In this document: positions 44,303-61,022 of the stretch, piece by piece
Numbering within the stretch: position 1 is the first letter of the stretch
Layout of the letters: every line of letters begins with the position of its first letter
Assembly: GCA_024642205.1 (NCBI GenBank)
Contig: JAHEBQ010000006.1
Span: 12,283 to 76,282 of the forward strand
Length of the DNA stretch: 64,000 nucleotides
Direction: 5' to 3'
Source: Planctomycetaceae bacterium
GTDB taxonomy: Bacteria > Planctomycetota > Planctomycetia > Pirellulales > Pirellulaceae
The notes under the pieces: model-generated
The model's input: the letters and a program-made list of their open reading frames with translations, nothing else
The model's database searches: none
What the model was told of the DNA's origin: nothing
Position numbers and translations under genes: made by a program

Positions 44303-45292
44303 ATGTTTCAAAACTTCTGCCGGATCGTCTTTTTACTGACATGTTTGATATCCGTCGGCTGCAGTTCAGGCGAGCAGACCGTCCAACCATACACAGGAAA
44401 ACCGTTGAAACTGGCGGTCATACCCAAGGGGACGAGTCATGAGTTTTGGAAATCGGTCCACTTTGGTGCCGAGAAAGCCGCGCGGGAATTGGGCAACGTG
44501 GAAATCGTTTGGCGCGGCCCTGTTGTGGAAAGCGATACCGGCAGCCAAATCGACGTTGTCAAAAACATGATCACGCTGGGGGTCGACGGGATTGTCTTGG
44601 CTCCCAATCAAAAAGGCGGACTCGTTGATGCGGTTGAAGAGTCCATTGACGAAGGGATTCCTGTCGTGATTTTCGACAGCGGTTTGGACGAAGGACCCGC
44701 GATCGCCAGCTACGTGGCGACCGACAATTACAAGGGCGGAAATCTGGCAGCCCAGGAAATGGCCCGGGCGATCGACAAAAAGGGAAATGTCATACTGCTC
44801 CGTTACCTAGCGGGAAGCGAAAGCACCGAACAGAGAGAAAACGGTTTTCTGGACGGTCTCAAGGAGTATTCGAAAATCAAAGTCGTCTCGTCGGATCAAA
44901 GGGGGGGAGACAACGCGACGACTTCCAAGGAAAAAGTTGATCAATTGCTGCAGTTGTTTGGCGAGGATCTGGCCGGAATTTTTGCCGTTTGTGAGCCCAA
45001 TGCCAACGGAACACTGGAAGCGCTTCGCAACGCAGGGTTGAACGGTAAGGTAAAATTCATTGCCTTCGACCCGAGTGATGCCCTGATCGAAGCTCTCAAG
45101 GATGGTTCGTGTTCAGGCATTGTCTTGCAGGATCCCGTCGAGATGGGTTACCGGGGTGTTTTGACACTGGTCGATCACATCAATGGCAAAACAGCCGAAC
45201 CGTTTATCTCAACCGGTGAATACGTTGCGACTCCGGACAATATGGATGACGCCAGAATTCAGGAGTTACTCAAGCCGTCGATTGTTGAGTAG
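44303..45292 (+). CDS. Sugar ABC transporter substrate-binding lipoprotein (ribose-type)
   Basis: 329 residues with a lipobox (LISVGC). Periplasmic-binding-protein I fold: KLAVIPKGTSHEFWKSVHFG, then GVDGIVLAPNQKGG, then GIPVVIFDSGLD and FAVCEPNANGTLEAL. Lipid anchoring replaces a free periplasmic protein. First gene of a three-gene importer; the sugar is unknown. Confidence 0.92.
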   Translation: MFQNFCRIVFLLTCLISVGCSSGEQTVQPYTGKPLKLAVIPKGTSHEFWKSVHFGAEKAARELGNVEIVWRGPVVESDTGSQIDVVKNMITLGVDGIVLAPNQKGGLVDAVEESIDEGIPVVIFDSGLDEGPAIASYVATDNYKGGNLAAQEMARAIDKKGNVILLRYLAGSESTEQRENGFLDGLKEYSKIKVVSSDQRGGDNATTSKEKVDQLLQLFGEDLAGIFAVCEPNANGTLEALRNAGLNGKVKFIAFDPSDALIEALKDGSCSGIVLQDPVEMGYRGVLTLVDHINGKTAEPFISTGEYVATPDNMDDARIQELLKPSIVE

Positions 45293-45493
45293 GCCAAACC
45301 GAAGAAAATTCAATGGTAACTGGAATGGTTTCCCAAGCTAACGAAGCCGATCGCGACTTGCGGCAGGCGATTGCGTCAGCCGGAACTGCCAGCGAGAATC
45401 GCCCTGATGAGTCATGGAAGCGGGGTTTACGACTTTCGTCACCTGAAAAATACTACTCGTAGTCAATCCGTCCCCTTCCCCCCTCCAACCGCC

Positions 45494-46975
45494 ATGACAG
45501 AACCCGTTCTCGAAGTCAAAGGCGTATCCAAGTCATTCGGCCCCACGCGGGCGCTGCACCATGTCGGACTTTCGGTCCGACCTGGCCAGGTCCTCGCACT
45601 GATCGGCGAAAACGGTGCCGGCAAGAGCACCCTGTTGAAAATACTGAGCGGTGCTCATCGCGCCGATTCGGGCTCGATGAAGATCGAAGGAAAACCGTTT
45701 CGCCCGAAGGGCCCGCACGATACGCGACAATCCGGCGTCGCGATGATATATCAAGAGCTCAACCTGGCTCCGGAACTGAGCGTCGAAGACAATGTCCTGC
45801 TTGGCCAGCCGGGAACGGGATGGGGGTTGCTAAATCGCCGGCTCCAACGCCCACGCGTACTTGAGGCGCTCAAGACCGTTGGGCTGGATGAGCTGAATCC
45901 GAAAGCGATGGTGGGAGATCAATCGGTGGCCACCCAACAGATGATCGAGATTGCCCGGGCGCTTGCAGGCGAGGCCCGGATCATCCTGTTCGATGAACCG
46001 ACCAGTTCGCTGCCGCAAAAAGACGTCGCGAGGTTGTTTGAAATCATCAACCAACTCAAATCGCGCGGGATCGGGATGGTTTATATCAGCCATTTTCTGG
46101 AAGAGGTCCGTGAGATCGCAGATCGCTATTCCGTCTTGCGAGACGGAGAGAACGTCGGCGAGGGCGAAATTTCCGACGTATCCGATCAGGAAGTTGTTGC
46201 CCTGATGGTTGGACGCGACGTAAGTAATCTGTTTCCAACCACTGACCACAAACCAGGAAAGCCGTGGGTGGTGGTTGACCGGATTAAGGGGACCCCCTAT
46301 CCACAAAACGTCAGTTTTCAGCTACGACGCGGAGAAGTTTTTGGGATCGCCGGTTTGGTGGGCGCTGGACGGACCGAACTGTTGCGTTCGATTTTTGGAC
46401 TCGACCATGTCGTCGGAGGAACGGTCTCGATTGATTCAAGGCGGATTCGCCAGTCAGTCCGGGCCCGAATGAATTCCGGATTTGGATTTCTCTCCGAAGA
46501 CCGGAAAAACGAAGGTTTGGCGCAGGACCTTTCATTGATCGATAACATTACCATCAGTAAGTTGGACGACTATACGAATTGCGGTTTCCTGAGATTGAGG
46601 AAACGGGACCGGGCGGCAGAGAGGTTGATGAAGCAGGTTCGCGTCAAAGCGCATTCCGGCTGGCAAGCCGTCTCCGAGTTGTCAGGAGGAAACCAGCAGA
46701 AAGTGGCGATCGCCCGAATCCTCCACCAGCAATCCGATATCCTGTTGATGGACGAACCGACCAAGGGCATCGATGTCGGTACCAAGGCCGAAATTTACCA
46801 GATGCTGGGCCAACTGGCAGCCAAAGGCAAAACGGTCGTGTTTGTTAGTTCGTACCTGCCGGAATTGCTGGCTGTCTGCGATCGGGTTGGTGTGATGGCA
46901 CGGGGAGAACTTCGCGAGGTACGCAATGCATGTGACTGGACCGAGGAAGAAGTCATGGAAGCCGCAATTGTTTGA
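45494..46975 (+). CDS. Sugar ABC transporter double ATPase (RbsA/MglA-type)
   Basis: 493 residues; start 45494 is the ATG at which homology begins (TEPVLEVKGVSKSFG), no Shine-Dalgarno visible; an ATG at 45407 is less likely. Two nucleotide-binding domains: Walker A GENGAGKST, Walker B ILFDEPTSSLP; the second domain has a degenerate Walker A (GLVGAGRTELLR) and signature SGGNQQKVAIARIL with LLMDEPTKGID. Powers uptake with the adjacent permease. Confidence 0.93.
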   Translation: MTEPVLEVKGVSKSFGPTRALHHVGLSVRPGQVLALIGENGAGKSTLLKILSGAHRADSGSMKIEGKPFRPKGPHDTRQSGVAMIYQELNLAPELSVEDNVLLGQPGTGWGLLNRRLQRPRVLEALKTVGLDELNPKAMVGDQSVATQQMIEIARALAGEARIILFDEPTSSLPQKDVARLFEIINQLKSRGIGMVYISHFLEEVREIADRYSVLRDGENVGEGEISDVSDQEVVALMVGRDVSNLFPTTDHKPGKPWVVVDRIKGTPYPQNVSFQLRRGEVFGIAGLVGAGRTELLRSIFGLDHVVGGTVSIDSRRIRQSVRARMNSGFGFLSEDRKNEGLAQDLSLIDNITISKLDDYTNCGFLRLRKRDRAAERLMKQVRVKAHSGWQAVSELSGGNQQKVAIARILHQQSDILLMDEPTKGIDVGTKAEIYQMLGQLAAKGKTVVFVSSYLPELLAVCDRVGVMARGELREVRNACDWTEEEVMEAAIV

Positions 46976-47097
46976 GCACCAAACAACACTCCGCGAAATA
47001 ACGCGTTCAAAGCCCGGCAGAACGTGAAAGTGTGAATTCAAGGAGCGAATTGCTACGTGACGCTACGTTGACGACTTGAACGGTAAGTGTAAAGCAC

Positions 47098-48174
47098 ATG
47101 AACACAGGCAGAGCCATCAAGAAGATTTTTCTATCTCAACTGGGTCCGATTTTTGCTCTGGTTTTCATCCTCGGGCTGTTCGCGATCGCCGACAACGAAT
47201 GGAGTTCTGGAAACTACCTTTCGGCACGCAACTTTCGCGTGATGATGAACTCGGCAGCGTTGATTGCGGTACCGGCACTGGGAATGACGATCATCATTAT
47301 CGCTGCCGGAATCGACCTCTCGGCAGGAACCGCCCTGACGCTGTGTGGCACCGTACTGGCGACTCAACTGAAATACGCAGCGGTTGCGTCCGGTGAACCC
47401 GGGTTTACCTGGGTCGTCCTGCAAGCCCTCGGATTGACCATCTTGACCGGTTGTCTGTGTGGTTTCGTGAACGGAAGCCTCATCAGCGCGACCAAAGTCG
47501 TGCCTTTCATTGTGACACTCGGGACGATGACGATCTTTCTCGGCATCGGGCAAATTATCTCCAGGGAATCGACCGTCTATGCTGATGACAAAAACATCCC
47601 CGGTTGGCTGGGCGATTTTTGTTACACGGGTTCCAATGCCGACCGGTATTTGAATTTTGGATTTTTACCAGACGTTCCCAACAGCGTCATTTTGACGGTG
47701 ATTCTCGCGCTGGGTGTGGCGTTGCTGCTGCGCTATACCGTTTTTGGGCGCAACGCATTTGCGATCGGTTCAAGTGAGTCAACCGCGAGGCTGTGCGGCG
47801 TCAATGTGCCGTTGACGATCATTTCCGTTTATACGCTGGCCGGGTTTTTCGTTGCGATTGGCGGGCTGTTGTACTACGCGAATGTAAAAAATGGCAATCC
47901 GTCTGATGGCATGGGAAAAGAGCTGGAGATTATCGCGGCGGTCGTACTTGGTGGCGGTAGTCTCAGCGGCGGTCGCGGTTCGATTCTCGGAACGATGGTT
48001 GGAGCATTGATCATCACCGCGATTCGCAGCGGCTGCGCGCAACTGTCGATCCCCAATACCTATACGCATATTATCATCGGCGGGATCATCATCATCGCGG
48101 TGATCGTCGATCAACTAAGGCATGGTTCACCCGAGTGGTTTTTCCGGATGTTACCGGCCAAGTCGGATGAATGA
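47098..48174 (+). CDS. Sugar ABC transporter permease (RbsC-type)
   Basis: 358 residues with about 8-10 membrane helices (GPIFALVFILGLFAIA, ALGMTIIIIAAGIDLSAG, ALGVALLLRYTVFG). The GIDLS motif and the EAA-like coupling segment (ARLCGVNVPLTI, then GGSLSGGRGSILGTMVGALI) are typical of RbsC/XylH permeases. Last gene of the importer; no regulator or kinase is adjacent. Confidence 0.92.
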   Translation: MNTGRAIKKIFLSQLGPIFALVFILGLFAIADNEWSSGNYLSARNFRVMMNSAALIAVPALGMTIIIIAAGIDLSAGTALTLCGTVLATQLKYAAVASGEPGFTWVVLQALGLTILTGCLCGFVNGSLISATKVVPFIVTLGTMTIFLGIGQIISRESTVYADDKNIPGWLGDFCYTGSNADRYLNFGFLPDVPNSVILTVILALGVALLLRYTVFGRNAFAIGSSESTARLCGVNVPLTIISVYTLAGFFVAIGGLLYYANVKNGNPSDGMGKELEIIAAVVLGGGSLSGGRGSILGTMVGALIITAIRSGCAQLSIPNTYTHIIIGGIIIIAVIVDQLRHGSPEWFFRMLPAKSDE

Positions 48175-48436: not shown

Positions 48437-51400
48437 TCATTTGGTGGAAAGCTCAATATTCAGCGCGGATTCTTGCGAGGTACCGACGGTCGTCGTGAGC
48501 GTGGTTTCCGAATTGTACCGCGGCGGAATGGTTTCGAGGAAGTCGATCGCATTCTCATCTTCGGACTCAAGGTACGTGGTGATCGAGACTTTGTATTGGC
48601 CAGTCGTGACGCCTCGCCGTTGCGTGGGTCCGCCGGCCTCGATGCTGAATCGCCCCGCTTGATCGGTGCGGGCACTGACGGTCTCTCCCTGCCGGCCGAC
48701 CGGAATCAACTCGACCTTCGCGTTCTTCAGGACTTGACCATCCAGCGTGACCCGACCGCTAACGGTAACGAACTGCACGATGGGCCGGGATTCGATTCTC
48801 GGCGTCACATTTTTCCGTTGTCCAGCCTCCGGTTTCATGGAATCCGATACCATGTCCTCGGGCGGGTCGACCCTCGATTTGTACAGTGGTACGTTCGCAG
48901 TGATTCTCGGCAATTCATCGTCCGGACGGACAACCGGTTCCATTGCGAGAGCTGGGTTCGCCGAAATCCGTTCGGAAGCAACGATGCGAGGTTGAATTTC
49001 AACTGGAATTTCGATTGGTGAACCTGCCGCCGTGCCTGGAACCACGACCTGGACGGGGGTCGGCTTTGCGTTGGACGCGTTTCGCCGCGAGCCTGGGGGG
49101 CTGGATGCACGCGTCATTGCTGGATCTGTTTCCAACAGGGAGGCACGTCGCATCGGAAGCGGAGTTTTTCCAAGCGTTGATCGGGTCCGACTCAGGGTTC
49201 GCGTATCATCGTCAGAAATGGGTATTGCAATCGCCGGTTTCTTGACAACGGTTGGCTTGCTAACGTTTGGTTTGCCCAGGTTCAACTCCTTCGGGTCCGG
49301 GTTCGGGGTCATCTGAGTATCGGGTGGTGGCTGACTGGCCTTGGATACCTGTACGCCGTTCACGATGCGGTTGGACTCTGATTTGACGCCCGCCACCATG
49401 GATTTCACATTCGTCGAAACCTGTTCAGGCAACGGTTCTTCGTTTTCGGTAACGGGGTCTTGGGGCCTCGGTTCTTCGGGAGCAGCTTGTTGGTACAGCG
49501 GCAGCATGCGGTGACGGACTTCCAGCGAAAGCAAATTCATGGTTGTCACGTAAAGCCTCCCACCAAATGCCCCCCAGCGATCAGGTACGGGTCGATAGGG
49601 ATGCCAACTTCCGGAGAGGTCTCCTGACTTTTCCTGCGAGCGTGTCAACAACGGGCGAAGTTGATCGTTCCATTTTTCCCAGTCTGGACCGCCGACGTAC
49701 CTCAAGACCTGCGTGGCGTAGTACCAGTAGTAAGTGTCTCGAAGTTGCGGTGAGGAATCACTGGGCAATTGTCGATTGAGCAGGTACTCAGCACCGGCCA
49801 ACAGTCGTGGATCGTCTCGCTTCCAACCGGAATAGATACGCATCAGCAATCCGACGGAAGTCATCGCGGCGGTTGGCTTACGTCCCTGGATTCGCGAAAC
49901 CCCCTTGGAGTCGACAGCGTAGGGATTGTATCGGTACAGCGAAATGTTTTCCGGGTCGGCGGCAACTTCCAGCCAGTCGTCCACTCCTTCAAACAACGCT
50001 TCATCAACATCCAGTCCGGCCAGCCGACCACTCTGCATCGCCATCATCATCCAACCGGAAACCGACGTGTCCGTCGAGGTTTTGCCTGGCTCATCAAAAT
50101 AACGCCAGCCCCCTTTACGCGGGTCCTGTGATTTCTTGATGTAGTCAAGTGCGTTTTGGGCAGGTTCCTTCAGCCGCGCATCCTGCGTCATTCCGTAGGC
50201 CTCGGTTAACGCCAAGGCCGCGATTCCGTGGCTGTACAGTCGGCAAGCATTGTCGGATTTCTTGTTGGAGGGTACATACAGACCGCCATCAGCTGCCTGG
50301 TTCTCGATCAGCCACTGAATCGCGTGGTTGATCTGCCTCGCATATTTGAATTCACGATGGTTGTAGCCAGCGCCCTGGAACGCGAGTAAAGCCAAACCGG
50401 TTGCCGCGGTGTCACTGTCAAGTTGACTCAATTGTTGAGGATCGTCTCGGTCAAAACCGGTCAACGCCCAGCTCCCATCGGGAGACTGAAAGCGGGCAAG
50501 AAATTCGAGCCCCAGGTGAATGGCGGCTTCGGTCGTCGGCTCCGAAGTCATTGCCAGCGCCGACGGCGAACGGTTGCGAAACGCCTCCTGGGCGAGCACG
50601 GCGTCGGGGTTAATTGACGGGGCCCCGCCAAATGTCGGATTCCGAAAACGGTTCTTTGGATCGGGTTGAAGCTGTTCGCTTTCGCGCGACGCCGGTCGCG
50701 TCATTACTCCGATGGAAGTGTCGTGCCGAATCCCCAGACCGGCCGGTCCTTCGATGGCATCGACATCCAGTTTGCTTCCCTGAACCTGTTCCATCGCCTC
50801 AAGGTCGGACCGCGAAATCGAAACGGCCTGCGAGTCGAGATTGGCCGTTTCGCCTGAACCGCGGCCGGAAGCGTTGGCCGGTTTGGTCGCTACGGCTTGC
50901 GAAATCGTCGGCGTTGTACTGGAACGTGTGGTTCGAGCCCCACGGGGTACGGGCTGGATCCCTACACGGGAAGTCTGCTCTGGCTCGATTCGTCTTGAAT
51001 TTGTGGTTCCGGGTCGTCGACTCGGCGCGGCCTCTACGATCGGCAATGATGCCGCCGCCTGAAGTAAAACATTCGTGGCGGTCATTCCGATTCCGGAACC
51101 TTGTATCGCGGTACTTGTTTGACGGCTCACGATTGCCGAGACGGAATCGCTGGGTTCATCCTCGGATGAATCGGTTGCGGCCATCGATCTCTCGCCGTCC
51201 CGGGAGTTGCCGAAACCCGGATTGGATCGAGTGATTGGGGCCTGGGCTATGCGAGTGCGTTCCGTACCACGCTTGTTTTCTTCATCTTCGTTATCGGCCT
51301 CGTTCCAGCCGGATTCATCTTCGTTTTGACGGGCCCGGCGGCGGGAATCGGCAAGCTGTTGAGCGACATTTGATTGGCCGGCATCGGCAATCTCTCCGGC

Positions 51401-53335
51401 GGATTCGGACGACCAACGCTCCAGCGTGATTTCAGCTGTACCACCGGTTCGCGCGGCGAAGTCGGACTGGTCGGAGGCCTCCAAAGCGCTGGTTGTCGGT
51501 GGTGCGGCCGATTGGTTGCGTGGAGCCGAGACATCCGCGAAATTGCTGGCAACGAGTGATGGTTGCCGATCGGATCGATCCTTCGAACGACGTGTCGATT
51601 CGGGATTCAGCTGCGAGACTTCTGGCTGTCCACCGCCAGACTTTCGTTCGGATCGGCGGTCAGTGACAATTTTGGTGGCGCCGAGATCGACCGTTGCACT
51701 CCCTTTTTCCGCCGAGAATTCGTCGCGATTGCTGGTCGACGCAGCGTCAACTGTAGCGGCCGAAGATTCAAGCGATCGTTCACTCGGCGTATTGGCCCCG
51801 GAAAGTTTCGCCGCCGAGGAAATCTCGGCCTTGAAAGCACTGGTTGGAATTTCTGTTATCCCGCTGGATCGACGAGCCACGGATTTGTTCGATGACGTCA
51901 ACATTTGTGTGTCGGCCGTTGTGCTTTGTGTTCGTTCGCGTCGAGCTGAATCGGAAGCGCGCGAGGCGGGACTGTTCATGCCACCGGTGAACCGGTCAAC
52001 GTTCTTTGCCTGGCCGATTCCGGCAATACCTTCGGAGTTGCGGGAAACCGACATTGTCCTGGAATTCAGCTCTCGAGACGCGGTATTGGACTCCGGTGTC
52101 CGGTCCGGTTTTTCAATGGCAACCGGCGAAGTAGCGACCGATGATTCGGTGGTCGAACGTCGAGGTGTGATCGTAAACGAGGTGGGATTGGAGATACTCG
52201 GAATCGTCTGGGACTCCGTCTTACGCTCGACCGCTTTGGCGATTTGCGCGCGGGGGCTGAGCGTCACGTTGGGCCGGTTGGTCAACGCGGGGCGATTCGT
52301 TCGGTCCTCAACTGGTCGACGCGTCATCTCATCGGCTGATTTCGATGGTTCATCGGGAGTCGGTTGCGTTGCGGTTGCGGAAGCGACTTTTTCGGAGACC
52401 GAAGCCTGTTTGTTGGCAATGGGTAACCGCGCGGTACTGCGTGTGACCTGCGCGTTGGAAGGCGAACGTTGCGGCGCTGATGGAAGGTGCGTTTCAGCCG
52501 GTCGAGCTCTGCTCGGGCTGGATGAACTGCGGGCGACGGGCTGGACGACCGACTCGGGTACCGCGGAGGCCTTTTCCGGTTCGGATCGCGATTCCCGGAC
52601 TGCGGCGGATTGGTGGGCAATCGCATCGGCGTGTTTCGAACTTTCGATTTCCTGTTGCGTACTGGACGCGGGCGACGTCTTGTTTTCGGCAAATTTCTTG
52701 CCAGTCATTTGCTGACTGGATTGCGGTTGGAGGTTGCGAGTCTGACGTCTGAGTTGTGAAAGTTCTCGGTTTTGACGCGGAACGGACTGGGAAGTCGTTT
52801 CGCGCCGAACGAGTTGTGGATCAACTTCGGGCTTGGATTCAATAACCGGGATGGGTTGCGGTTGTACGTTTGTCGTCGGAGTTGCTGGTCGTTCCGTCTC
52901 AACCGTCGGCTCAGGTGTCTGGCGGGCGTTGGTTTCTTCCCACACGAAAGACGCGCGTTGGTCGCTGATTTCGATGGTGCGAATCGGGCGCTGGGCAACC
53001 TGACGCTCGTTTGGCTTGTAGGGATTCTCAAAGATATTGACGACGGAAGCGAACACGAGGATCAGCAAGTGCATGGCCAGACTGGTGATGATCGCAAACT
53101 GAAGTGAGCGGCGAAGTCGGCTGTTATCCAGGTTGAACAACAGGAAAATTGCCAGCACAGCCAGGAGCGGAAGCCCAAGCAGGCTGCCCCACATCCAGGG
53201 TCCGCGAAGAATCGTCAAGATCGCTCCAAGGGCAATCCCGCTGAGAACCGTAAGCGCCACCAGCACCGGCCAGAACTGCTGGTCGAATGTACCTGGCCGA
53301 GAGGGCGCTATTTTTTGAACGGTTCTACGTTTCAT
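48437..53335 (-). CDS. Giant TonB-like membrane protein with toroid and transthyretin-like domains
   Basis: 1632 residues. Three N-terminal hydrophobic segments (about 22-43, 49-69, 80-101); the third carries S85-L-A-M-H89, the SxxxH pattern of TonB/TolA transmembrane helices that contact ExbB/TolQ. A Pro-rich patch and about 800 residues rich in Ser, Arg, Thr, Glu and Ala follow, without predicted fold. Residues about 930-1280 are an alpha/alpha-toroid of squalene-cyclase/prenyltransferase type (LEFLARFQSPDGSW, WLIENQAADGGLY, QDPRKGGWRYF) without the cyclase DxDD motif. After another linker, residues about 1517-1632 form a transthyretin/carboxypeptidase-regulatory-like beta domain (VSGRVTLDGQVLKNAKVELIP by its GRVTLDGQ core). 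Last gene of the TPR-ExbB-ExbD operon. Likely force-transmitting partner; target unknown. Confidence 0.85.
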   Translation of the reverse strand: MKRRTVQKIAPSRPGTFDQQFWPVLVALTVLSGIALGAILTILRGPWMWGSLLGLPLLAVLAIFLLFNLDNSRLRRSLQFAIITSLAMHLLILVFASVVNIFENPYKPNERQVAQRPIRTIEISDQRASFVWEETNARQTPEPTVETERPATPTTNVQPQPIPVIESKPEVDPQLVRRETTSQSVPRQNRELSQLRRQTRNLQPQSSQQMTGKKFAENKTSPASSTQQEIESSKHADAIAHQSAAVRESRSEPEKASAVPESVVQPVARSSSSPSRARPAETHLPSAPQRSPSNAQVTRSTARLPIANKQASVSEKVASATATQPTPDEPSKSADEMTRRPVEDRTNRPALTNRPNVTLSPRAQIAKAVERKTESQTIPSISNPTSFTITPRRSTTESSVATSPVAIEKPDRTPESNTASRELNSRTMSVSRNSEGIAGIGQAKNVDRFTGGMNSPASRASDSARRERTQSTTADTQMLTSSNKSVARRSSGITEIPTSAFKAEISSAAKLSGANTPSERSLESSAATVDAASTSNRDEFSAEKGSATVDLGATKIVTDRRSERKSGGGQPEVSQLNPESTRRSKDRSDRQPSLVASNFADVSAPRNQSAAPPTTSALEASDQSDFAARTGGTAEITLERWSSESAGEIADAGQSNVAQQLADSRRRARQNEDESGWNEADNEDEENKRGTERTRIAQAPITRSNPGFGNSRDGERSMAATDSSEDEPSDSVSAIVSRQTSTAIQGSGIGMTATNVLLQAAASLPIVEAAPSRRPGTTNSRRIEPEQTSRVGIQPVPRGARTTRSSTTPTISQAVATKPANASGRGSGETANLDSQAVSISRSDLEAMEQVQGSKLDVDAIEGPAGLGIRHDTSIGVMTRPASRESEQLQPDPKNRFRNPTFGGAPSINPDAVLAQEAFRNRSPSALAMTSEPTTEAAIHLGLEFLARFQSPDGSWALTGFDRDDPQQLSQLDSDTAATGLALLAFQGAGYNHREFKYARQINHAIQWLIENQAADGGLYVPSNKKSDNACRLYSHGIAALALTEAYGMTQDARLKEPAQNALDYIKKSQDPRKGGWRYFDEPGKTSTDTSVSGWMMMAMQSGRLAGLDVDEALFEGVDDWLEVAADPENISLYRYNPYAVDSKGVSRIQGRKPTAAMTSVGLLMRIYSGWKRDDPRLLAGAEYLLNRQLPSDSSPQLRDTYYWYYATQVLRYVGGPDWEKWNDQLRPLLTRSQEKSGDLSGSWHPYRPVPDRWGAFGGRLYVTTMNLLSLEVRHRMLPLYQQAAPEEPRPQDPVTENEEPLPEQVSTNVKSMVAGVKSESNRIVNGVQVSKASQPPPDTQMTPNPDPKELNLGKPNVSKPTVVKKPAIAIPISDDDTRTLSRTRSTLGKTPLPMRRASLLETDPAMTRASSPPGSRRNASNAKPTPVQVVVPGTAAGSPIEIPVEIQPRIVASERISANPALAMEPVVRPDDELPRITANVPLYKSRVDPPEDMVSDSMKPEAGQRKNVTPRIESRPIVQFVTVSGRVTLDGQVLKNAKVELIPVGRQGETVSARTDQAGRFSIEAGGPTQRRGVTTGQYKVSITTYLESEDENAIDFLETIPPRYNSETTLTTTVGTSQESALNIELSTK

Positions 53336-53417
53336 TGAAACGGTTGGTCGAGTTCGGTTGTTGTTTTGGTATTAACATTCAGTGATACAGAATGGAAACC
53401 TGAAGTCCGGCGATTGC

Positions 53418-53831
53418 CTATTCCTCGTCCATCGTCGCAGTAAAATCATTAATGCCGACTTTCTTGCAAAGTCCAATCGCCGTTGCGACCGGTTCCCAGT
53501 GGGCTTTCCGGTCGGCCCGGATCACAACTGCTTGCGTTAACGGGTTGTTCGCTTTGGCACGGCGCAGGATTTGTTCGACCTGTTCGACCTGTCGGAATGC
53601 CCCATCGATGAAATAGCGACCTTGCTCGTCGACGTTGACGACCATTTCATCCGGCTGGGCGCTGGCAGGGAGGGCTTCGGTGACACTTGGTAGATTCAAG
53701 TCAAGTTCTCGCTCTTCTTCGGAAAACCGGGAGGAAACAAGAAAGAAGATCAACAGCAAAAACACGACATCGATCAGGGGTGTGATGCTCAGTGAACTAA
53801 TGGCCGACGTGCGCTTGATTTTTACTGGCAT
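53418..53831 (-). CDS. exbD: ExbD/TolR biopolymer transport protein
   Basis: 137 residues from ATG 53831 (homology begins at MPVKIKR; the open frame extends upstream without support). One transmembrane helix near the N-terminus contains the proton-carrying Asp (ITPLIDVVFLLLIFF, D21), followed by the periplasmic domain (VVNVDEQGRYFIDG, VVIRADRKAHW). With ExbB it forms the proton-driven motor that energises TonB or TolA. Only one ExbD is present, whereas many planctomycete clusters have two. Confidence 0.93.
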   Translation of the reverse strand: MPVKIKRTSAISSLSITPLIDVVFLLLIFFLVSSRFSEEERELDLNLPSVTEALPASAQPDEMVVNVDEQGRYFIDGAFRQVEQVEQILRRAKANNPLTQAVVIRADRKAHWEPVATAIGLCKKVGINDFTATMDEE

Positions 53832-53944
53832 GGTGGTTTGGCCGGTTTGAAATTGGAAACTTGATCTAACATCTGTAACAGCAAGACCGGGATTTGAATT
53901 CCAGGACCTGAAACTTGAATCCATCGCTGGCAGTCATGGTCTGT

Positions 53945-54952
53945 TCAGTTCTGACTCCGTTTGAGTTCCGCCCGGGCGCCCGAGTTTGTGATTTCGTCTG
54001 GTCCGACGCCATTCTCGCTCCCATATTGCAAATCATGGTCGGATTGGGAATCGATAGAATCGTCGCCGATTCCTTGAGTGAATCGAACCTGTCCTTCATA
54101 CCGTTCGAATTGGGGTAAGAGGTTGTAAACCATTTCCTCGATTTCGTTCATCAGTTTGATCACTCGATTCTCGTAAAAATGCGAAATGACGGCAGCGGGA
54201 ATGGCAATCATGAGGCCGGCCATCGTCGTCACCAATGCAACATAGATTCCGTTGGCCAGGGCGACGCCACGGTTCTGACCGGCGTTGAGTTCGGCCAGTT
54301 GCGTCGTGTCATAGAATGCCTGCGTGATTCCCCAGACGGTTCCCAGCAAGCCGATCAACGGCGCGATCGCGGCGGCAAGGCTTAACCAGGATGTCATTTG
54401 CGTCAGGCGCGTGGCTTCGCGTTGGCTGGCTTCGGAAACGGCGTTTTCCATTTCTGCCTGAGGTCGTCCGACCTTGACCAGCAACGAACGAATCACATAG
54501 GAAGCGGAAGAGGGGTACCTTTGACAGGCCTGATAGGCCCGCCTTGGATCCAAACCACCGGGTGATTGACTGAGCTGGGAAAGCTGATCGATCAGCTCCG
54601 GTGGAAATATCTTCTCGCGCCGCAGGGCCAGGAAGCGTTCGATTGCGATCGTGACCACGCCGACCGATAGCAGCAACAAGGGAAACATGAACCATCCACC
54701 CTGCGTCAGCAACGACAGAAAGTTAATGCCTTTCTTGGCCGGAACCGGAGCCGGACTCGACTCTTCGCCTCCGTCTTGACGGGTCACGACTGGCACGACC
54801 AGCGCCAACGGGATGTCGCGGGCGGAGCCAACCACCGGATCCGACGCGGAAACCAGGGAAGTTGTCGACGAGGCAGTGATCGCGCAGAAGACAATCAATA
54901 TGGCTCCAACCGCGAACGGAAATCGCAAGGCCCGTCTGACAGAAAAATTCAT
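53945..54952 (-). CDS. exbB: ExbB/TolQ/MotA-family proton channel protein
   Basis: 335 residues; ATG 54952 has GGAG six bases upstream. It has a signal-like N-terminal segment (AVGAILIVFCAITASSTTS) before the usual three-helix core: GGWFMFPLLLLSVGVVTIAIER, SWLSLAAAIAPLIGLLGTVWGI and GIYVALVTTMAGLMIAIPAAV (given as core segments). The conserved Thr/Ser and Pro-rich pattern in helices 2-3 matches TolQ/ExbB. An N-terminal extension is common in planctomycete versions. Motor partner of the ExbD encoded directly downstream. Confidence 0.93.
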   Translation of the reverse strand: MNFSVRRALRFPFAVGAILIVFCAITASSTTSLVSASDPVVGSARDIPLALVVPVVTRQDGGEESSPAPVPAKKGINFLSLLTQGGWFMFPLLLLSVGVVTIAIERFLALRREKIFPPELIDQLSQLSQSPGGLDPRRAYQACQRYPSSASYVIRSLLVKVGRPQAEMENAVSEASQREATRLTQMTSWLSLAAAIAPLIGLLGTVWGITQAFYDTTQLAELNAGQNRGVALANGIYVALVTTMAGLMIAIPAAVISHFYENRVIKLMNEIEEMVYNLLPQFERYEGQVRFTQGIGDDSIDSQSDHDLQYGSENGVGPDEITNSGARAELKRSQN

Positions 54953-55130
54953 GATCGCTCCGGGTTGGGTTGTCGTGCGTCAAGCACAATTCTGATCTGG
55001 CGGGTGGAGCTGGAAAGTCCAGTCGCCAACGCCGGTTCTATCTTAGTTGATAAACGTTGCTGCATTCGGAAATCTGGGTGGGGTTGCCGTCCTCCGTCGC
55101 GAAATCGAGCACGAATTCCGCAGCGGTCAC

Positions 55131-58100
55131 CTAGTTGCCGTCAATTTTTTTGAGTGTCTCAAGCTGTTTGCGTGCTTCGGGAGCAAGTCGATCGTCGTTG
55201 TAGTTTTCCAACAGGTATTCGAACTGTCGAATCGCTTCGCCGACCAGTTTGGGTTTCTGGTCAGCCGGTGCGCCTTCGACTTGAACAAAATTGCAACGAG
55301 CCGCTTCATAGATCGCATAGGCTTGCCAGGGCTTTACATCATCGGCAGCTTGCGGGCCGCCGAATCCGAAATACACAAGCTTGAATTCGTTGACCGCGTC
55401 GTCGAATTGCTTGTTTTTGAAATAGGTGTCACCAATCATGCAATGTGCGCGGGCTCCGGTCTTGCCGAGATTCTCAGCTGCCTTGCGGTAGTACTCCAGG
55501 GCCGGTTCGGGTTGGTTCAGTCCGCCATAGGCGGTTCCCATTTCGAGCCAGGCATCCTGTTTGAAACTGATGTCGGCGTCGGATTCTTCAAATCCCCTGG
55601 CTAACTCGATCGCCTCATTGTACTTTTTGAGCTTGTTGGCGCTCTGTGCCCCGTGCAGCATGGTAAGCCATTTGATTTTCGAATCGATTTGATTTGCTGC
55701 ATCAACGATTGGTTTGGCTGCCGTGTACGCCTGGAAGGCCTCTGCGTAATTCTTCAACCGATACTGTGATTCGGCGACCATGAACATTCCGTCAGCAAAC
55801 AGTTCGCCATCGGGAAACAATTTGACTTGATTTGCAAATCCATCATGGGCTTGCTGGAACTGGTCCTGCTTGTAATGGGCCCAAGCCAATTTGTAGGCGG
55901 CTTTTTCTCGGATGCTGTCCTCCGTTTTCGAGTCGACGCACAGCCTGTACGCCGCGATCGCCTTGTCAAAATCGTCCTGGTTATAAGCTGCTGAGCCGAC
56001 GTGAAAGTTCGCTTCGGCCGCCAGCGGGCTTTCCGGTTTATCCGTCGCAATTTTGGTGAAGAATTCCATCGCCAGGTCCTCCTGGTTGAGCGAACGATAC
56101 GCCCAGGCCAGTTCGTAGAAATAGCGGTCGATTCTGGGTGATTCCGCGGATTCGGCGATAAGTGTTTTGAACGTCGCGACCGCATCGCTCCAGTTCTTGA
56201 CATCGATTTGAGCCAATCCGAGTTCGTAGAGCGCATTGGTTCGAGATTCGCCTTGCGGATCGGAACTCAGGTACTCCTTCAAATCGGTGATCGAAGCCTC
56301 CACGTTACCGGTTTTTCGACGTGAAGCTCCCCGTCCGATTTTCGCTCGCTGGGCCAACTCGTGTCCGGGAAACGTATTGATCAACGTTGAAAATAACGCG
56401 TCGGACTCTTTGTAGTTTTTGAGTTCCAGTTGGCAATACGCTGCGTTGTACAGTGAATATGGCGCGAATTTCGAGTTGCTGTATTTTTCATTGATGAGAT
56501 CGAAGTGTTTGAGTGCGTCCTCGAATTTGTCGGCATCGTAGGCGTGTTCGCCCAAGTAGTAATGCAGGTCGCTGAGGAGCGGCGATTCGGGAAAGCCGTT
56601 GACCAGGTTTTCAGCCGTCTTGTTGGCCGCATCGGTTTGATCGGATGCCAATTGGGAGCGACAGAGAGTGACCAGGGTTTCTTCCGTTCGTTTCCATTGG
56701 TTGTTCCTGGCGTAAGAATCGGACAGTGACTGGGCCGCCGCGGAAAACTCCTTGAGTTGAAACTGGCTGGAACCGATCCAGAACATCGCTTCCGAATACG
56801 CGTCACCGTCGTCTGCGACCGAATCCAGCAACGGGTTCAGTTTGGCGATCGTCGAGTCGTAGTCTTTATTCATGTAGGTCGCCAGGCCCTCGCGAATCTG
56901 CCAGCGCGTTCGATGTTTGTGATCGAGGAATCTGGATATCAACGATTCGAAGACCTTGGCGGCCTCGGCAGGCTGATCATTCAGAAGATACGATTCGGCT
57001 TTGACTTCCAGTGTGTCAGCCAGAAAATCACTGTCGGCGTATTTGGTTTCAAATCGAGTCGCTGTCTCGATTGCGGTTTTGAAATCGTTGATGTCCAGCG
57101 ACGTGAAGGCGGAACTATGGAGCGCCGAGGGGGCGAGCGGGTGATCGGGATATTGCTCGGCAATCGTGTTGAACAGGTCGATCGACTCCTTTCGTTTCGC
57201 AGGAATCTCGAACGCCGCATCTGCCTGATCCATCAGGAGCGCAACCCAGACAGCATCCTTGGGCGTTTCGTTGATCGACTTCTCCAGTTGCCGGGTCGCA
57301 ACATCGTAGGCTGTTTGGGGTTCATTCGATTTCAAGTAAACGCCAGCCAGCCAATGCGCGGCGAGGGTCGCATTTTTCGGGTCGGTGGCGATGACCTTTT
57401 CCAGGACGGTTTTGGCCAAATCCGGTTTCCCGGCGTCGATGTAGTTGCGACCGGCGTTGGCGAGTGATTCGGCGGCCAGGGGCGATTGCGGATTCGCCGC
57501 GACTGCTTCAAACAGCCTGGCGGCCGATTCGAACTGCCCCAGTCGACGGGAGCAGAAGGCGAGTTCGTACCTGGCATCTTCTGCGATTTTGGCGAAGCCG
57601 GCATCCTTGGAGGATGGGTCCTGTTCAACGAGATCGGAAAGCAAGGATTGGGCGCGATTCAATTTTACGATTGCCGCGTCCTTGTTCCCCCCGTTTTCGT
57701 CGGCCGTCGCCAGGCGGATCAAGGTCGACCCCGTCCGGCCCTGGATCTCGTCCAGCAGGGGGCTGCTTTCGGCTTTCGCCTCGGTCAGGACTTTTTCAAA
57801 ATACTCAAGGGCTGTGGCGTACTGACCTAATTGGTCGTGCACGTCAGCGGTTGCGTAAAGCCCTTCAAGTTTGAACGTTTGCTTGGGGTAATCCAGCATT
57901 TTGGTATACGAAGCCAGCGCATTTTCACGCTGACCAAGTTCCTCAAAGGCACCTCCCTGGAAATAGCAGACCTGGTCAGCGTCGGCAAAATCGGCGTATT
58001 CCTTAAGCAGATTGGCAAAGGTCTGGGTTGCGGTGGTCAGGAGCTGATTCGCCTCCTCGGATTTGGACTCCTGCTTCAGTTGCTGTCCGCGGCGGAACTG

Positions 58101-58550
58101 GGCGAACCCGAGGTATAGATTGGCTTGCGGTTTTTGTACGGCTTGATCATTCTCCAGTTTGGGCAATGACGATTTGAAATGGGCAATCGCTTTCTCAAAT
58201 TGATTGGATTGCAGATAACAGATGCCGGCGTTGTAATGCGCTTTTCCGGCCAACGACGAATCGGCATGCTGATTCAGGAGTTTCTCCCATTGCTCGGCGG
58301 CGAAGACATACTCCCCGTTGTTTTGAGCGACCGATGCCGTTTGGGCCATGTTCAAGGCAGCCGCTTCGTCCTGAAGATTGGCGGCCTGCAGATTGGGTGC
58401 CAGACCAGCGGGAGCCAGCGCGATGGCTGTCACCAACATCACCAGGACGGCGAACTGTCGTTTGCGAGGCAGGCGGTTGTTGCGGCGCTGGATCGACTCC
58501 GGGGACGAAGTGATTTTGATTTCAGGTCGTGTATTCTTGTTAAATGTCAT
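55131..58550 (-). CDS. Exported TPR-repeat protein of the Exb cluster
   Basis: 1139 residues; ATG 58550 has AGGAA five bases upstream. After a basic N-terminus and a signal or anchor helix (FAVLVMLVTAIALAPAGLAP) the whole protein is made of about 25 tetratricopeptide-type repeats (AHYNAGICYLQSNQFEKAI, ALYELGLAQIDVKNWSDAV, AYKLAWAHYKQDQFQQAHD). TPR arrays are protein-binding scaffolds; YbgF/CpoB, a TPR protein, works with the Tol system in proteobacteria. It is the first gene of the unit with exbB, exbD and the giant TonB-like protein, so a scaffold role for that machine is likely but inferred. Confidence 0.88.
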   Translation of the reverse strand: MTFNKNTRPEIKITSSPESIQRRNNRLPRKRQFAVLVMLVTAIALAPAGLAPNLQAANLQDEAAALNMAQTASVAQNNGEYVFAAEQWEKLLNQHADSSLAGKAHYNAGICYLQSNQFEKAIAHFKSSLPKLENDQAVQKPQANLYLGFAQFRRGQQLKQESKSEEANQLLTTATQTFANLLKEYADFADADQVCYFQGGAFEELGQRENALASYTKMLDYPKQTFKLEGLYATADVHDQLGQYATALEYFEKVLTEAKAESSPLLDEIQGRTGSTLIRLATADENGGNKDAAIVKLNRAQSLLSDLVEQDPSSKDAGFAKIAEDARYELAFCSRRLGQFESAARLFEAVAANPQSPLAAESLANAGRNYIDAGKPDLAKTVLEKVIATDPKNATLAAHWLAGVYLKSNEPQTAYDVATRQLEKSINETPKDAVWVALLMDQADAAFEIPAKRKESIDLFNTIAEQYPDHPLAPSALHSSAFTSLDINDFKTAIETATRFETKYADSDFLADTLEVKAESYLLNDQPAEAAKVFESLISRFLDHKHRTRWQIREGLATYMNKDYDSTIAKLNPLLDSVADDGDAYSEAMFWIGSSQFQLKEFSAAAQSLSDSYARNNQWKRTEETLVTLCRSQLASDQTDAANKTAENLVNGFPESPLLSDLHYYLGEHAYDADKFEDALKHFDLINEKYSNSKFAPYSLYNAAYCQLELKNYKESDALFSTLINTFPGHELAQRAKIGRGASRRKTGNVEASITDLKEYLSSDPQGESRTNALYELGLAQIDVKNWSDAVATFKTLIAESAESPRIDRYFYELAWAYRSLNQEDLAMEFFTKIATDKPESPLAAEANFHVGSAAYNQDDFDKAIAAYRLCVDSKTEDSIREKAAYKLAWAHYKQDQFQQAHDGFANQVKLFPDGELFADGMFMVAESQYRLKNYAEAFQAYTAAKPIVDAANQIDSKIKWLTMLHGAQSANKLKKYNEAIELARGFEESDADISFKQDAWLEMGTAYGGLNQPEPALEYYRKAAENLGKTGARAHCMIGDTYFKNKQFDDAVNEFKLVYFGFGGPQAADDVKPWQAYAIYEAARCNFVQVEGAPADQKPKLVGEAIRQFEYLLENYNDDRLAPEARKQLETLKKIDGN

Positions 58551-59408
58551 TGGGGTTCCTGGCGGTTGAAGGCCGCATTACTTCGTTGGCACTTGTCGAG
58601 TCAGCGGCCGGGAACCGCCGAATCGGATCCAGTCCGTCAGTCTGCAACTGGGAAAACTTGTTTCAACGGAATCGAAGCGGTCAATCTTGACCATTCAATC
58701 CACTTGAACGGGTTTCGCTGGTCCATCAACGGGATTCGTTTTTCCATCACGAATGGGAGGCCTGTCGTCGATGGCAGCCGTAAAATCGCCAGCGAAAGGT
58801 CGTCATTATCGCTCAAAAAATCTTACTTTCACAGGCAATTGGGAGTGGGCGAGGTTCGACGTTGGAAAAACGTCGAAGAATGGAAATGCCTTGGCGTGAA
58901 ATGTGTCCGACTAAATTCGTTGGGTCAAAAACGTAAGTGTAAACTAAAACCAATTCGATGCATCGAAAACCAGCCAGCAGTAGGAAAATCGTAGTGCTGT
59001 CGGAAAAACGAATGCTTCGGCTGAACAAAGCGTATACGAAAACGAACTGTCTTTGTTTGTGAAAATTGTGTTCGGGAATAATTCGTGCCGTTGATTCGAA
59101 GTTTTGCCTTCGATATCGGGGAAATTATTGGCAGTCCGCCCTGATTTGGCAGGGGTCCCTGACTGACCTCAGGATCCGCAAGACATGGAGTTCTGTGGAT
59201 CGGCCCCGGAAAAATGGCGATCCTTGAGAGATCGCAGGTGAAATAACGTGTACAATTCGGGCGATTCTTGTAAAATCAAAGGGTCTTTTCTCGACGCTTA
59301 ACTTGTTGGATTTCGCCGGTCTATATTCCCACCCATGGCCTCCAAATTCGACAGCTGGTGCTTTCACTTCCAAGCAAAAGTACGAACCAACCTGCCAAGG
59401 AGAACTCG
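58551..59408. other. Divergent intergenic region, no gene found
   Basis: About 860 bp between the Exb operon and the pseudopilin gene, expected to contain both promoters. No coding frame or RNA gene is supported. Confidence 0.45.
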
Positions 59409-61022
59409 ATGACATCCTCTCGAACCTGTCCCATCCTGATCTCGCGAGGCGGATTGACGCTAGTGGAAGTGATGATTGCGTTGACGATGACGTTGATTGT
59501 GCTGGGCGCGATGATGACCGCATTCCAGTTTGCGAGCCAGCAAATGCAAATGGGCCGCGGTGTCATGGAGATGGCCAATCGCCTGCGGGCCGCCGAAGAA
59601 CTGTTGCGCGACGATCTGAGTAATCTCACGATTGATCCTCGGCCCTATACAGATTCAACCAACCCCAATGGTTACTTTGAGATTGTTGAAGGACCCCTTC
59701 GAGATTTGAATTTTCCGTTGACTGCTTTTGACGCGTCCAATGACGGAGTTCTGGATGGAATTCTCGATAGCAACGGCAATTCTGTTCCCGATCCGATCGA
59801 TGTTGCAACCACCGGTGGCTTGGATTTGAATGCGAATTCTGTTGATGACCGGTTCGACTCAACCATGCCTGGCAATAGCTACAAAGGCGATTATGACGAT
59901 GTCTGGATGGGCACCGTTCGCAGCGAACAGCAGCCGTTTCGGGGCAGGTACATCGCGCCCAACGGAACCATAACGATTGGCGCCATCGACTACAGCAGCC
60001 TGGATCCAACGGCAGGCTTCGCAACCGACATGATTGAATCACCGTTAGCCGAGATTTGTTGGTGGACCGCCTATGTCGACGACAATGGAAATCGTACTGA
60101 TGATTTCGTTGGTGAGAGCATTAAAGTCTATCGGCGCGTGCTGTTGATTCGACCGGGTTTGAACTTGCCAACATTCGGCTCGTTTGCCGACGCGGCCTAT
60201 TACCTGGCGACGAATGATATTTCCGCCAGGGTCGAAACGTTCACCGATGGTTCGTCGAAGTACTATCGAGTCGTCGCCAACGATATCAAAGATCTGGCCA
60301 ATCGACAGAATCGTTTTTGCCATACGGCTGCTCCGAACGCATTCAATGCAAATTTTGGGTCATACCGTTACCTTCTGGATCGATCCGCTTTGTGGGCCTT
60401 GCGTTCGGCGGATTACGCAATCAACGGAGCCGTGGTCTTACCCCCGGATTACAATGGGAATGACATCATTTTGACAGATGTTGTTTCGTTTGACATGAAG
60501 GTCTTTTCACCCAATGCGGGCGTCGCAATCGACGGTGGTGTCACGGTTGAACCAGGTGATATTGGATTTGTAAATCTCAAAAATAACTCTCCAGGTAATG
60601 TGGCCGGACTTGGGGCTTTCGTCGACCTCGGGCACGTGGGTGGCGGATGGTTTGGTGGTTATGCCACAAGTCTCTCCCAGTTGACCTACCAGTATCGTTT
60701 GGATCTTTTTCCTGGTCCTCCTGTCGAGATAGTCGGATTGATGGAGACGGTTTACGACACGTGGACTCCAATGTATGAAAGCGATGGCCTGAATCAGGAC
60801 GGCGATAATGATGGGGGCTCACCCGCACAAGCACTGATCGATGAAGGAACCAACGGTTTCGATAATGGTGGTCCGGCTGCTCCGGACGATGATTCCGAAC
60901 GCGAGACCCGCCCCCCCTACCCGTTCCCGGTTCGAGGCCTCAAAGCGACGATTCGGTTGATTGAAAAGAACACCAAGCAAATCCATCAGTCGTCAGTCAT
61001 TCACAGCTACGTGCCCGAGTAA
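59409..61022 (+). CDS. Large pseudopilin-like protein (prepilin N-terminal motif)
   Basis: 537 residues; ATG 59409 has AAGGAG six bases upstream. The prepilin peptidase site is RGG|LTLVEVMIALTM, with Glu at position 5 of the mature protein and a hydrophobic helix (MIALTMTLIVLGAMMTAF). It is far longer than ordinary pseudopilins (150-250 residues), resembling PilW-like minor pilins. Around residues 110-160 are Asp/Asn-rich loops (DSNGNSVPDPID, DLNANSVDDRFD) that look like calcium-binding repeats, and another acidic cluster near the C-terminus. Role: minor pseudopilin of a type II secretion or type IV pilus system; the rest of the system is not in the window. Confidence 0.85.
   Translation: MTSSRTCPILISRGGLTLVEVMIALTMTLIVLGAMMTAFQFASQQMQMGRGVMEMANRLRAAEELLRDDLSNLTIDPRPYTDSTNPNGYFEIVEGPLRDLNFPLTAFDASNDGVLDGILDSNGNSVPDPIDVATTGGLDLNANSVDDRFDSTMPGNSYKGDYDDVWMGTVRSEQQPFRGRYIAPNGTITIGAIDYSSLDPTAGFATDMIESPLAEICWWTAYVDDNGNRTDDFVGESIKVYRRVLLIRPGLNLPTFGSFADAAYYLATNDISARVETFTDGSSKYYRVVANDIKDLANRQNRFCHTAAPNAFNANFGSYRYLLDRSALWALRSADYAINGAVVLPPDYNGNDIILTDVVSFDMKVFSPNAGVAIDGGVTVEPGDIGFVNLKNNSPGNVAGLGAFVDLGHVGGGWFGGYATSLSQLTYQYRLDLFPGPPVEIVGLMETVYDTWTPMYESDGLNQDGDNDGGSPAQALIDEGTNGFDNGGPAAPDDDSERETRPPYPFPVRGLKATIRLIEKNTKQIHQSSVIHSYVPE

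Follow-up and report, generated by a model that had tools for sequence, protein, structure and literature searches.

A planctomycete operon linking ExbB- and ExbD-type genes to a giant protein with a TonB-like helix, a long linker and a toroid tip

The subject of this study is a run of four consecutive genes in a 64,000-nucleotide stretch of DNA (the whole of which is here called the window) from a Planctomycetaceae bacterium, whose own genome is available as a 6.8-Mb draft assembly of 158 contigs. All four lie on the minus strand, and they encode, in order, a TPR protein of 1139 residues (55131..58550), an ExbB/TolQ-like motor subunit of 335 residues (53945..54952), an ExbD/TolR-like motor subunit of 168 residues as annotated (53418..53924) and a giant, transducer-like protein of 1632 residues (48437..53335). 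A sequence-only reading of this DNA had described the same operon, and it is borne out by open reading frames and Pfam domains. The interpretation argued for below, to which a probability of roughly 0.7 may be attached, is that these genes form a proton-motive-force machine of the Ton/Tol kind, in which the giant protein would act as the force transducer.

The four genes and the architecture of the giant protein

The two motor subunits are recognised by Pfam, the first through a MotA_ExbB domain (88.4 bits, cut-off 22.9) and the second through an ExbD domain (83.7 bits, cut-off 25.4); Asp52 of the latter protein, in the sequence SITPLIDVVF, aligns with the Asp of ExbD/TolR. As annotated, the ExbD frame carries 31 residues in front of the ortholog length, and since 33 of the 35 ExbD rows are 135–148 residues long, translation more probably starts at Met32 (53831), in which case the second of the three intergenic gaps (178, 20 and 82 base pairs, taken in the gene order given above) would become 113 base pairs. 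When the motor subunits were compared with NCBIfam, the tolQ and tolR models scored above those for exbB and exbD, all of them below cut-off. The TPR protein, which has an N-terminal hydrophobic leader followed by CpoB/YbgF-like repeats, matches the NCBIfam model TIGR02795 (tol_pal_ybgF) with 242.6 bits against a cut-off of 90.1, a score that is a sum across many repeats and to which generic TPR likeness can add.

The giant protein begins with three hydrophobic helices at residues ~22–103 (53027..53272; this and all further features of the protein are on the minus strand), predicted from hydrophobicity and from an AlphaFold2 (AF2) model of low confidence, with a predicted local distance difference test score (pLDDT) of 66 and a predicted template-modelling score (pTM) of 0.39. 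In the row alignment the third helix contains the pair S85-x3-H89 (53069..53083), in which the SxxxH signature of TonB and TolA had been recognised. Because the N-terminus (net charge +4) and the loop preceding helix 3 (net +2) are both positive, this helix is expected to point outwards, from the cytoplasm into the periplasm, S85 and H89 lying near its cytoplasmic end as in TonB/TolA. Behind it, a candidate for the "motor box" strand, IRTIEIS (52964..52984), was picked out by eye in the alignment, the description of such a box being taken from PMC12204202; the AF2 model has no strand at this place. There follows, at residues ~104–925 (50561..53026), a linker which from its composition is of low complexity, hydrophilic and presumably disordered, its 822 residues comprising 8% proline and 16% hydrophobic residues as against 31% hydrophobic in the toroid. 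The long arm proposed by the sequence-only reading is thus present in the window, and across 44 giants the linker spans 400–1327 residues with a median of 810.

The tip is an alpha/alpha toroid at residues ~926–1290 (49466..50560), as had also been proposed, and is assigned from Pfam, AF2, fold comparison and alignment. Pfam SQHop_cyclase_C matches residues 926–1018 with 30 bits (cut-off 26.1), the AF2 model has a pLDDT of 86.9 and a pTM of 0.86, and the nearest solved fold is squalene-hopene cyclase (2sqc; Z 26.8, root-mean-square deviation 3.3 over 290 residues, 17% identity), while the best Foldseek match has an E-value of 6.5e-07. Further fold matches are to epimerases and GH76, sugar-binding (a/a)6 enzymes included, and the toroid alignment contains invariant acidic and aromatic residues as well as many conserved aromatics. 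The catalytic acid motif of class II terpene cyclases is DXDD, and this is absent among the invariant and near-invariant columns of that alignment; similarly, the giant misses the NCBIfam cut-off for squalene/oxidosqualene cyclases (31.7 against 322.7 bits). The likeness to squalene-hopene cyclase, or to class II terpene cyclases generally, therefore lies in the fold of the toroid, whereas the giant differs in having a single toroid, in lacking a conserved DXDD and in being anchored in the membrane by a TonB-like helix.

Everything after residue ~1290 (48437..49465) is a C-terminal extension that comparison with 43 other giants shows to be peculiar to the window protein, the tail being 342 residues long here and at most 65 residues in the others. 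Its residues ~1524–1620 (48476..48766) give a transthyretin-like match, Pfam CarboxypepD_reg, which at 21.4 bits is under the cut-off of 32.3, and tblastn found no counterpart of this tail in 67 regions while the same query recovered itself in the window. A transthyretin-like domain had been put forward as part of the design; present in one giant out of 44, it has to be struck from the list of design elements.

Conservation of the operon and of the SxxxH helix

Match strength divides the relatives cleanly, both for the giant N-terminus (E ≤ 1.4e-26, or else weaker than 1e-6) and for the ExbB ortholog (E ≤ 6.2e-57, or else weaker than 1e-34). The two occur together in 41 of 60 genomes, that of the window included, and neither gives a strong match in the remaining 19 (lists compared by eye), two of which (G040 and G046) have a propeller-bearing giant that is more distantly related. 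ExbB ortholog and giant are adjacent in 39 of the 41. The sequence-only reading had proposed gene order across planctomycetes as a check, and the outcome was positive: all four genes stand in order in 32 of 40 fetched regions, namely those of 30 giants, a propeller giant (L083) and a paralogous operon of the own genome (L063). Of the other eight regions, two hold single-helix paralogs (L084, L085), three end at a contig edge (L052, L061, L072), in one (L073) no ExbD appears over the last 1.2 kb of the contig, and in two no motor gene was seen (L079, L082). Among 18 loci followed up from a phylum search, 14 have the four genes, although in one of these the giant ends at a contig edge before the toroid (L107) and in another the tip is not a toroid (L108); L109 and L111 have only ExbD and giant, relaxed thresholds included, and L119 (an Nramp-type protein) and L123 were rejected as false matches of the N-terminal profile. 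This profile matched in 16 of 392 phylum genomes, a count that measures little because few candidates (ten) were scored per genome and two of the 18 followed loci were false. Finally, of 11 further regions chosen for long toroid open reading frames, G336 and G426, which belong to the same phylum and lie outside the class, have all four genes, G373 has ExbD and giant, and no motor gene was seen within the fetched stretch of the remaining eight.

Within helix 3, position 89 is H in 32 of 35 rows, N in two and Y in one, and position 85 is S in 27, C in three, A in three and G in two, so that the motif-bearing third helix described by the sequence-only reading stands. A result for TonB H20N has reportedly been obtained, for which no confirming paper was found, and the occurrence of N at this place in a few rows is merely noted and not used. 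The cytoplasmic end of the helix is also conserved (R76 in 32 and Q79 in 33 of the 35 rows); column entropies are 0.37 bits for Q79, 0.5 for H89, 0.68 for L86 and 1.13 for S85, while 19 of the 25 positions 78–102 exceed 1.5 bits. (Alignment A1 excludes L061, which has no N-terminus, and L082, L083, L063, L084 and L085; alignment A2 excludes the same six and L052.) In E. coli, TonB S16 and H20 contact ExbB S34 and W38, W38 contacts P190, and the His of the Ser/His pair is essential in both Ton and Tol (PMC12215075). The 35 ExbB rows, among which are the C133 paralog, L083 and L045 (the last being the same operon as L056), have Ser at E. coli position 34 in 34 cases, the pore residues Thr148 in 35 and Thr181 in 34, and Pro190 in 35; with S34 and P190 kept and W38 not, the TonB contact network appears to be mostly present, one known member being replaced. 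Conserved helix, linkage, co-occurrence and retained ExbB residues together argue, at the level of sequence, for the TonB/TolA-like role that had been suggested for the giant.

SxxxH was found in a membrane helix in 81 of 95 toroid membrane proteins as against 20 of 377 other membrane proteins from the same regions, a contrast that does not count independent events, because the rows share descent and some are nearly identical. Control spacings among the 95 gave 4 for S..H, 2 for S....H and 1 for H...S. The 20 non-toroid proteins include two giants with no recognised toroid (L107, L108) and two proteins with vWA-type tips (L168, from Pfam, and L134, judged by eye). By eye, the classical TonBs of four relatives have SxxxH in three cases and AxxxH in one. 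Searched against the PDB, the paralog-helix profile gave no match, and the giant N-terminal profile nothing better than E 0.88.

As to the surroundings of the operon, Rfam gave no match within window positions 43000–64000, and promoter and terminator scans returned values close to shuffled means. On the plus strand, 44303–48174 holds sugar-type ABC transporter genes (binding protein, ATPase and permease by eye), convergent with the giant gene, and at 59358–61022 a gene divergent from that of the TPR protein encodes a product whose N-terminal helix looks pilin-like by eye (GGLTLVEVMIALTMT).

A wider class of toroid proteins, and other tips

Toroid matches occur in 60 of 60 relatives, many of them being paralogs. 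In the own genome four more toroid proteins have a helix before the toroid, each with SxxxH (SLLLH, SFLTH, SFVAH and STTFH), a comparison that leaves out a ninth match, C5; the motif is absent from the more distant matches L042–L044 and from a weak match beside ExbB at C129 (L169). Of the four SxxxH proteins, only that at C133 has ExbBD alongside within the fetched stretches, in an operon of the order TPR, ExbB, ExbD, toroid (L063:3516-10226) whose toroid protein has 667 residues and the SFVAH helix. This type has counterparts in G180, G385, G391 and G438, and perhaps also, going by the positions of ExbB and N-terminal matches, in G038, G040, G045, G049, G057 and G058. The own genome has seven MotA/ExbB loci, two of which adjoin SxxxH toroid proteins and one an SxxxH vWA protein.

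Outside the genus, 40 paralogs (from the first 41 such rows, not previously included) have SxxxH in 38 cases, SxxxN in one and neither in one. The usual form of their helix is P-x-W-L-x-S-x3-H-x6-L, that is, three of the four residues of the SHLS motif (S-x3-H-x6-L-x3-S) at the correct spacing; in the paralog alignment A3 the L is present in 34 of 40 rows and the final S is not conserved. Paralog linkers are short, at 86–134 residues in 39 rows (L159 left out). At the level of the phylum, a toroid match at E ≤ 1e-30 was obtained in 321 of 392 sampled genomes, with five candidates scored per genome and helices checked in a minority. Of 30 loci from this search, 15 run off the locus end (L190 among them shows SILVH) and one, from the same order, has SxxxN; the remaining 14, all outside the order, have SxxxH in 11, AxxxH in two and a signal-like helix only in one. 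L207 (G098) and L159 (G051) are toroid proteins with no SxxxH helix, and as L207 has only a signal-like N-terminal helix, free toroids may exist. Some unusual arrangements were also seen: a 2849-residue toroid protein (L221:3939-12488) in which no SxxxH helix was found before the toroid, pairs of toroid open reading frames close together in L218, L219 and L224 (both with SxxxH helices in L219 and L224), and at L149 an ExbB gene followed by four ExbD-type genes and a toroid protein with the helix SFTVH.

A tree of 95 toroids unites the giants, those with a propeller among them, in one clade (98/88) that excludes the long-branched L120, and places the C133 type in a separate clade (100/98). ExbBD neighbours occur in several distinct toroid clades, and the tree labels under-count them, since overlapping open reading frames hid some (L083, L106, L111, L120). 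Given SxxxH in 38 of the 40 paralogs and toroids in 321 of the 392 genomes, the giant would be one branch of a TonB-like class with a toroid tip; the sequence-only reading was right that the giant is real and drew its claim too narrowly in confining it to that protein.

The architecture is also varied by other domains. In G048 the operon contains close relatives of ExbB (E 1.9e-110), ExbD (3.9e-56) and the TPR protein (1.3e-303) together with a giant of 958 residues (L108:2516-5392, P0006) that has three helices, SLLFH and a long linker. No toroid was found in it by profile or tblastn, nor any Pfam match, and its last ~250 residues form another tip, alpha/beta by eye. As everything but the tip is kept, the tip may be a swappable end of a modular arm. 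In five other relatives (G336, G426, G046, G040 and G398; L214, L215, L083, L082 and L120) a PD40 propeller of TolB/PorE-like type lies between helices 1 and 2 of the giant; the three compared with NCBIfam are similar to PorE and TolB, at scores below the cut-offs of those models. The likeness to PorE and TolB is confined to this propeller, which differs from them in sharing one chain with transducer helix and toroid, and the window giant has no propeller, its loop there being of a few residues.

A third tip leads to a published proposal. In 2025, PMC12204202 proposed vWA force transducers, having a non-TonB tip on an SHLS-type helix and, in the PVC group, TPR–TolQ–TolR neighbours. The own-genome vWA protein (L168:5942-6946, P0005; C102), which has 334 residues, the helix IPAWVLSLSLH and a vWA domain by Pfam, and which is followed by TPR, ExbB and ExbD genes (L168:5942-9302), fits this class. 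The giant shares with it the non-TonB tip on an SHLS-type helix and the TPR–TolQ–TolR neighbourhood, whereas the vWA class has a vWA tip (Pfam finds no vWA domain in the giant, P0001), a linker of ~100 residues and a pair of TolR genes.

Relation to Ton and Tol-Pal, alternatives and implications

The sequence-only reading had noted that the operon lacks a classical TonB or TolA. In the own genome TonB_C (PF03544) gave no match at E ≤ 1 and no TonB-receptor plug was found; a classical TonB elsewhere in this genome was considered and rejected, PF13103 giving no more than two matches, both below cut-off (E 0.09 and 0.5). TonB_C is found in 17 of the 60 relatives and in none of the 28 of the genus, and a receptor plug above cut-off in 23 of the 60, two of them in the genus. 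Among the 41 giant-bearing genomes TonB_C is present in 14 and absent from 27, which rules out the toroid as a simple substitute for classical TonB; occurring both with and without TonB_C, the giants look like an additional machine. In common with TonB and TolA, the giant has an SxxxH helix near its predicted cytoplasmic end, a hydrophilic, Pro-containing linker, a folded tip and a linked motor pair. It differs from them in having three helices and not one, a linker of 400–1327 residues as against ~115 in EcTonB and ~300 in EcTolA (PMC12905483), a toroid tip and no TonB_C in its genome, and because of the tip and the missing TonB_C match it is not filed here as a TonB or TolA.

The TPR partner resembles the Tol-Pal system, in which cpoB has that place; neither TolB nor Pal is among the four operon genes, no genome-wide search for either having been made. 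Since the score of the TPR protein exceeds that required for YbgF, the motor leans towards tolQ/tolR and five relatives insert a PD40 propeller, a Tol-Pal-like envelope job would seem perhaps twice as likely as nutrient import, and a long arm fits the enlarged periplasm of planctomycetes (PMC5394234). On the preferred interpretation ExbB and ExbD would be the motor, on which helix 3 (N-in, C-out) would dock through S85/H89, as TonB and TolA do, while the stretch behind it may bind ExbD. Motion would then pass along the linker to a periplasmic toroid that would stand in for the TonB/TolA C-terminal domain and grip a partner located at either the wall or the outer membrane, and the CpoB-like TPR protein would be periplasmic. 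The most likely job would be Tol-Pal-like upkeep or remodelling of the outer envelope across a wide periplasm, rather than import of the siderophore type.

A number of observations weigh against this interpretation. Linkage and presence are imperfect: in G041 some 1.45 Mb separate the giant from its ExbB, in G044 the two occupy different contigs, and ortholog and giant are both absent from 8 of the 27 other genus members, five of which are >90% complete. Giants lack the full SHLS motif (at position 96 the window protein has A, and the L of the motif occurs in 9 of 35 rows), ExbB W38 is kept in none of 35 rows, V taking its place in 25, and the paralog-helix profile failed to pick out E. coli TonB or TolA, TolA scoring 1.7 bits at rank 12 among non-toroid open reading frames and TonB being unlisted. 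within the fetched stretches, several of which end at contig edges, ExbB/ExbD lie beside only four of the 40 paralogs; four of the seven own MotA/ExbB loci (C117, C95, C129 and C128) have no TonB-like SxxxH protein nearby in the stretch fetched, and the weak toroid match beside ExbB at C129 lacks the motif. As the G048 giant has no toroid, this domain cannot be essential to the operon. Lastly, Ton and Tol tips bind by strand addition (PMC12905483), a mode that should not be taken for granted in a helical toroid.

Several of the same facts can be read differently. The giant might dock on the motor as a sensor or anchor and not as a force carrier, with a toroid that binds glycan, peptidoglycan or lipid and either gates the motor or ties it to the wall. 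A linker with a median length far above those of EcTonB and EcTolA would be poor for pulling unless wound up, and the toroid is rich in conserved aromatics and has sugar-binding (a/a)6 enzymes among its fold matches; yet the Ser/His pair, with the His that is essential in Ton and Tol (PMC12215075), is conserved over the order, the enlarged periplasm (PMC5394234) could itself need a long arm, and paralog linkers are short, so that this explanation, while credible, is improbable. Rather less probable still is a toroid acting as a glycan- or lipid-directed enzyme tethered to the inner membrane, whose substrate the motor pair feeds or moves. The nearest solved folds are indeed enzymes (squalene-hopene cyclase, epimerases, GH76), and the toroid has its invariant acidic and aromatic residues, but a common fold proves no function, DXDD is not among the conserved columns, and a plain tether needs no conserved SxxxH.

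That the giant is an ordinary membrane protein with a squalene-cyclase-like domain, its SxxxH inherited without function and its gene order a shared accident, is very hard to credit. It is true that the toroid rows are all related and the motif counts not independent, but H89 stays while most of the helix drifts, several separate toroid clades adjoin ExbBD, and the ExbB ortholog and giant N-terminus are either both found or both without strong match throughout the 60 genomes. The force-transducer interpretation is retained as the best account of the operon.

A broader proposal, to which we would give an even chance, is that proton-driven envelope transducers of a separate class evolved in Planctomycetota, with a toroid of the terpene-cyclase type in place of the TonB tip. 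There would be several per genome, most with no adjoining motor gene, and a small number of ExbBD motors might drive many exchangeable tips; the giant operon would be a dedicated, Tol-Pal-like, long-arm member, with a built-in TolB-like propeller in some lineages and an exchanged tip in one. The sequence-only reading had called the design undescribed for TonB systems, which was an overstatement, as non-TonB (vWA) tips were proposed in 2025 (PMC12204202). No description of toroid-tipped transducers was found in the literature as searched, with partial coverage, by titles and opening lines, and the words toroid, squalene and cyclase do not occur in the main text of PMC12204202. The present finding thus extends an already proposed kind of system, in a form broader and better supported than in the earlier note, the toroid being a second non-TonB tip besides the vWA class.

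In a 2012 survey TonB was reported from only four planctomycete genomes, and that most lacked it was interpreted as consistent with a membrane not coupled to the remaining envelope (PMC3422733). ExbB matches are nevertheless present in 60 of 60 relatives, with seven MotA/ExbB genes in the own genome, and toroid proteins are good candidates for what these planctomycete motors drive. Planctomycete cells were observed to take up dextran into their periplasm in 23% of 1,065 cases, as against none of 816 cells treated with the uncoupler CCCP, the mechanism being left open by the authors (PMC5394234); a proton-driven machine of the outer envelope would make that mechanism testable through gene removal.

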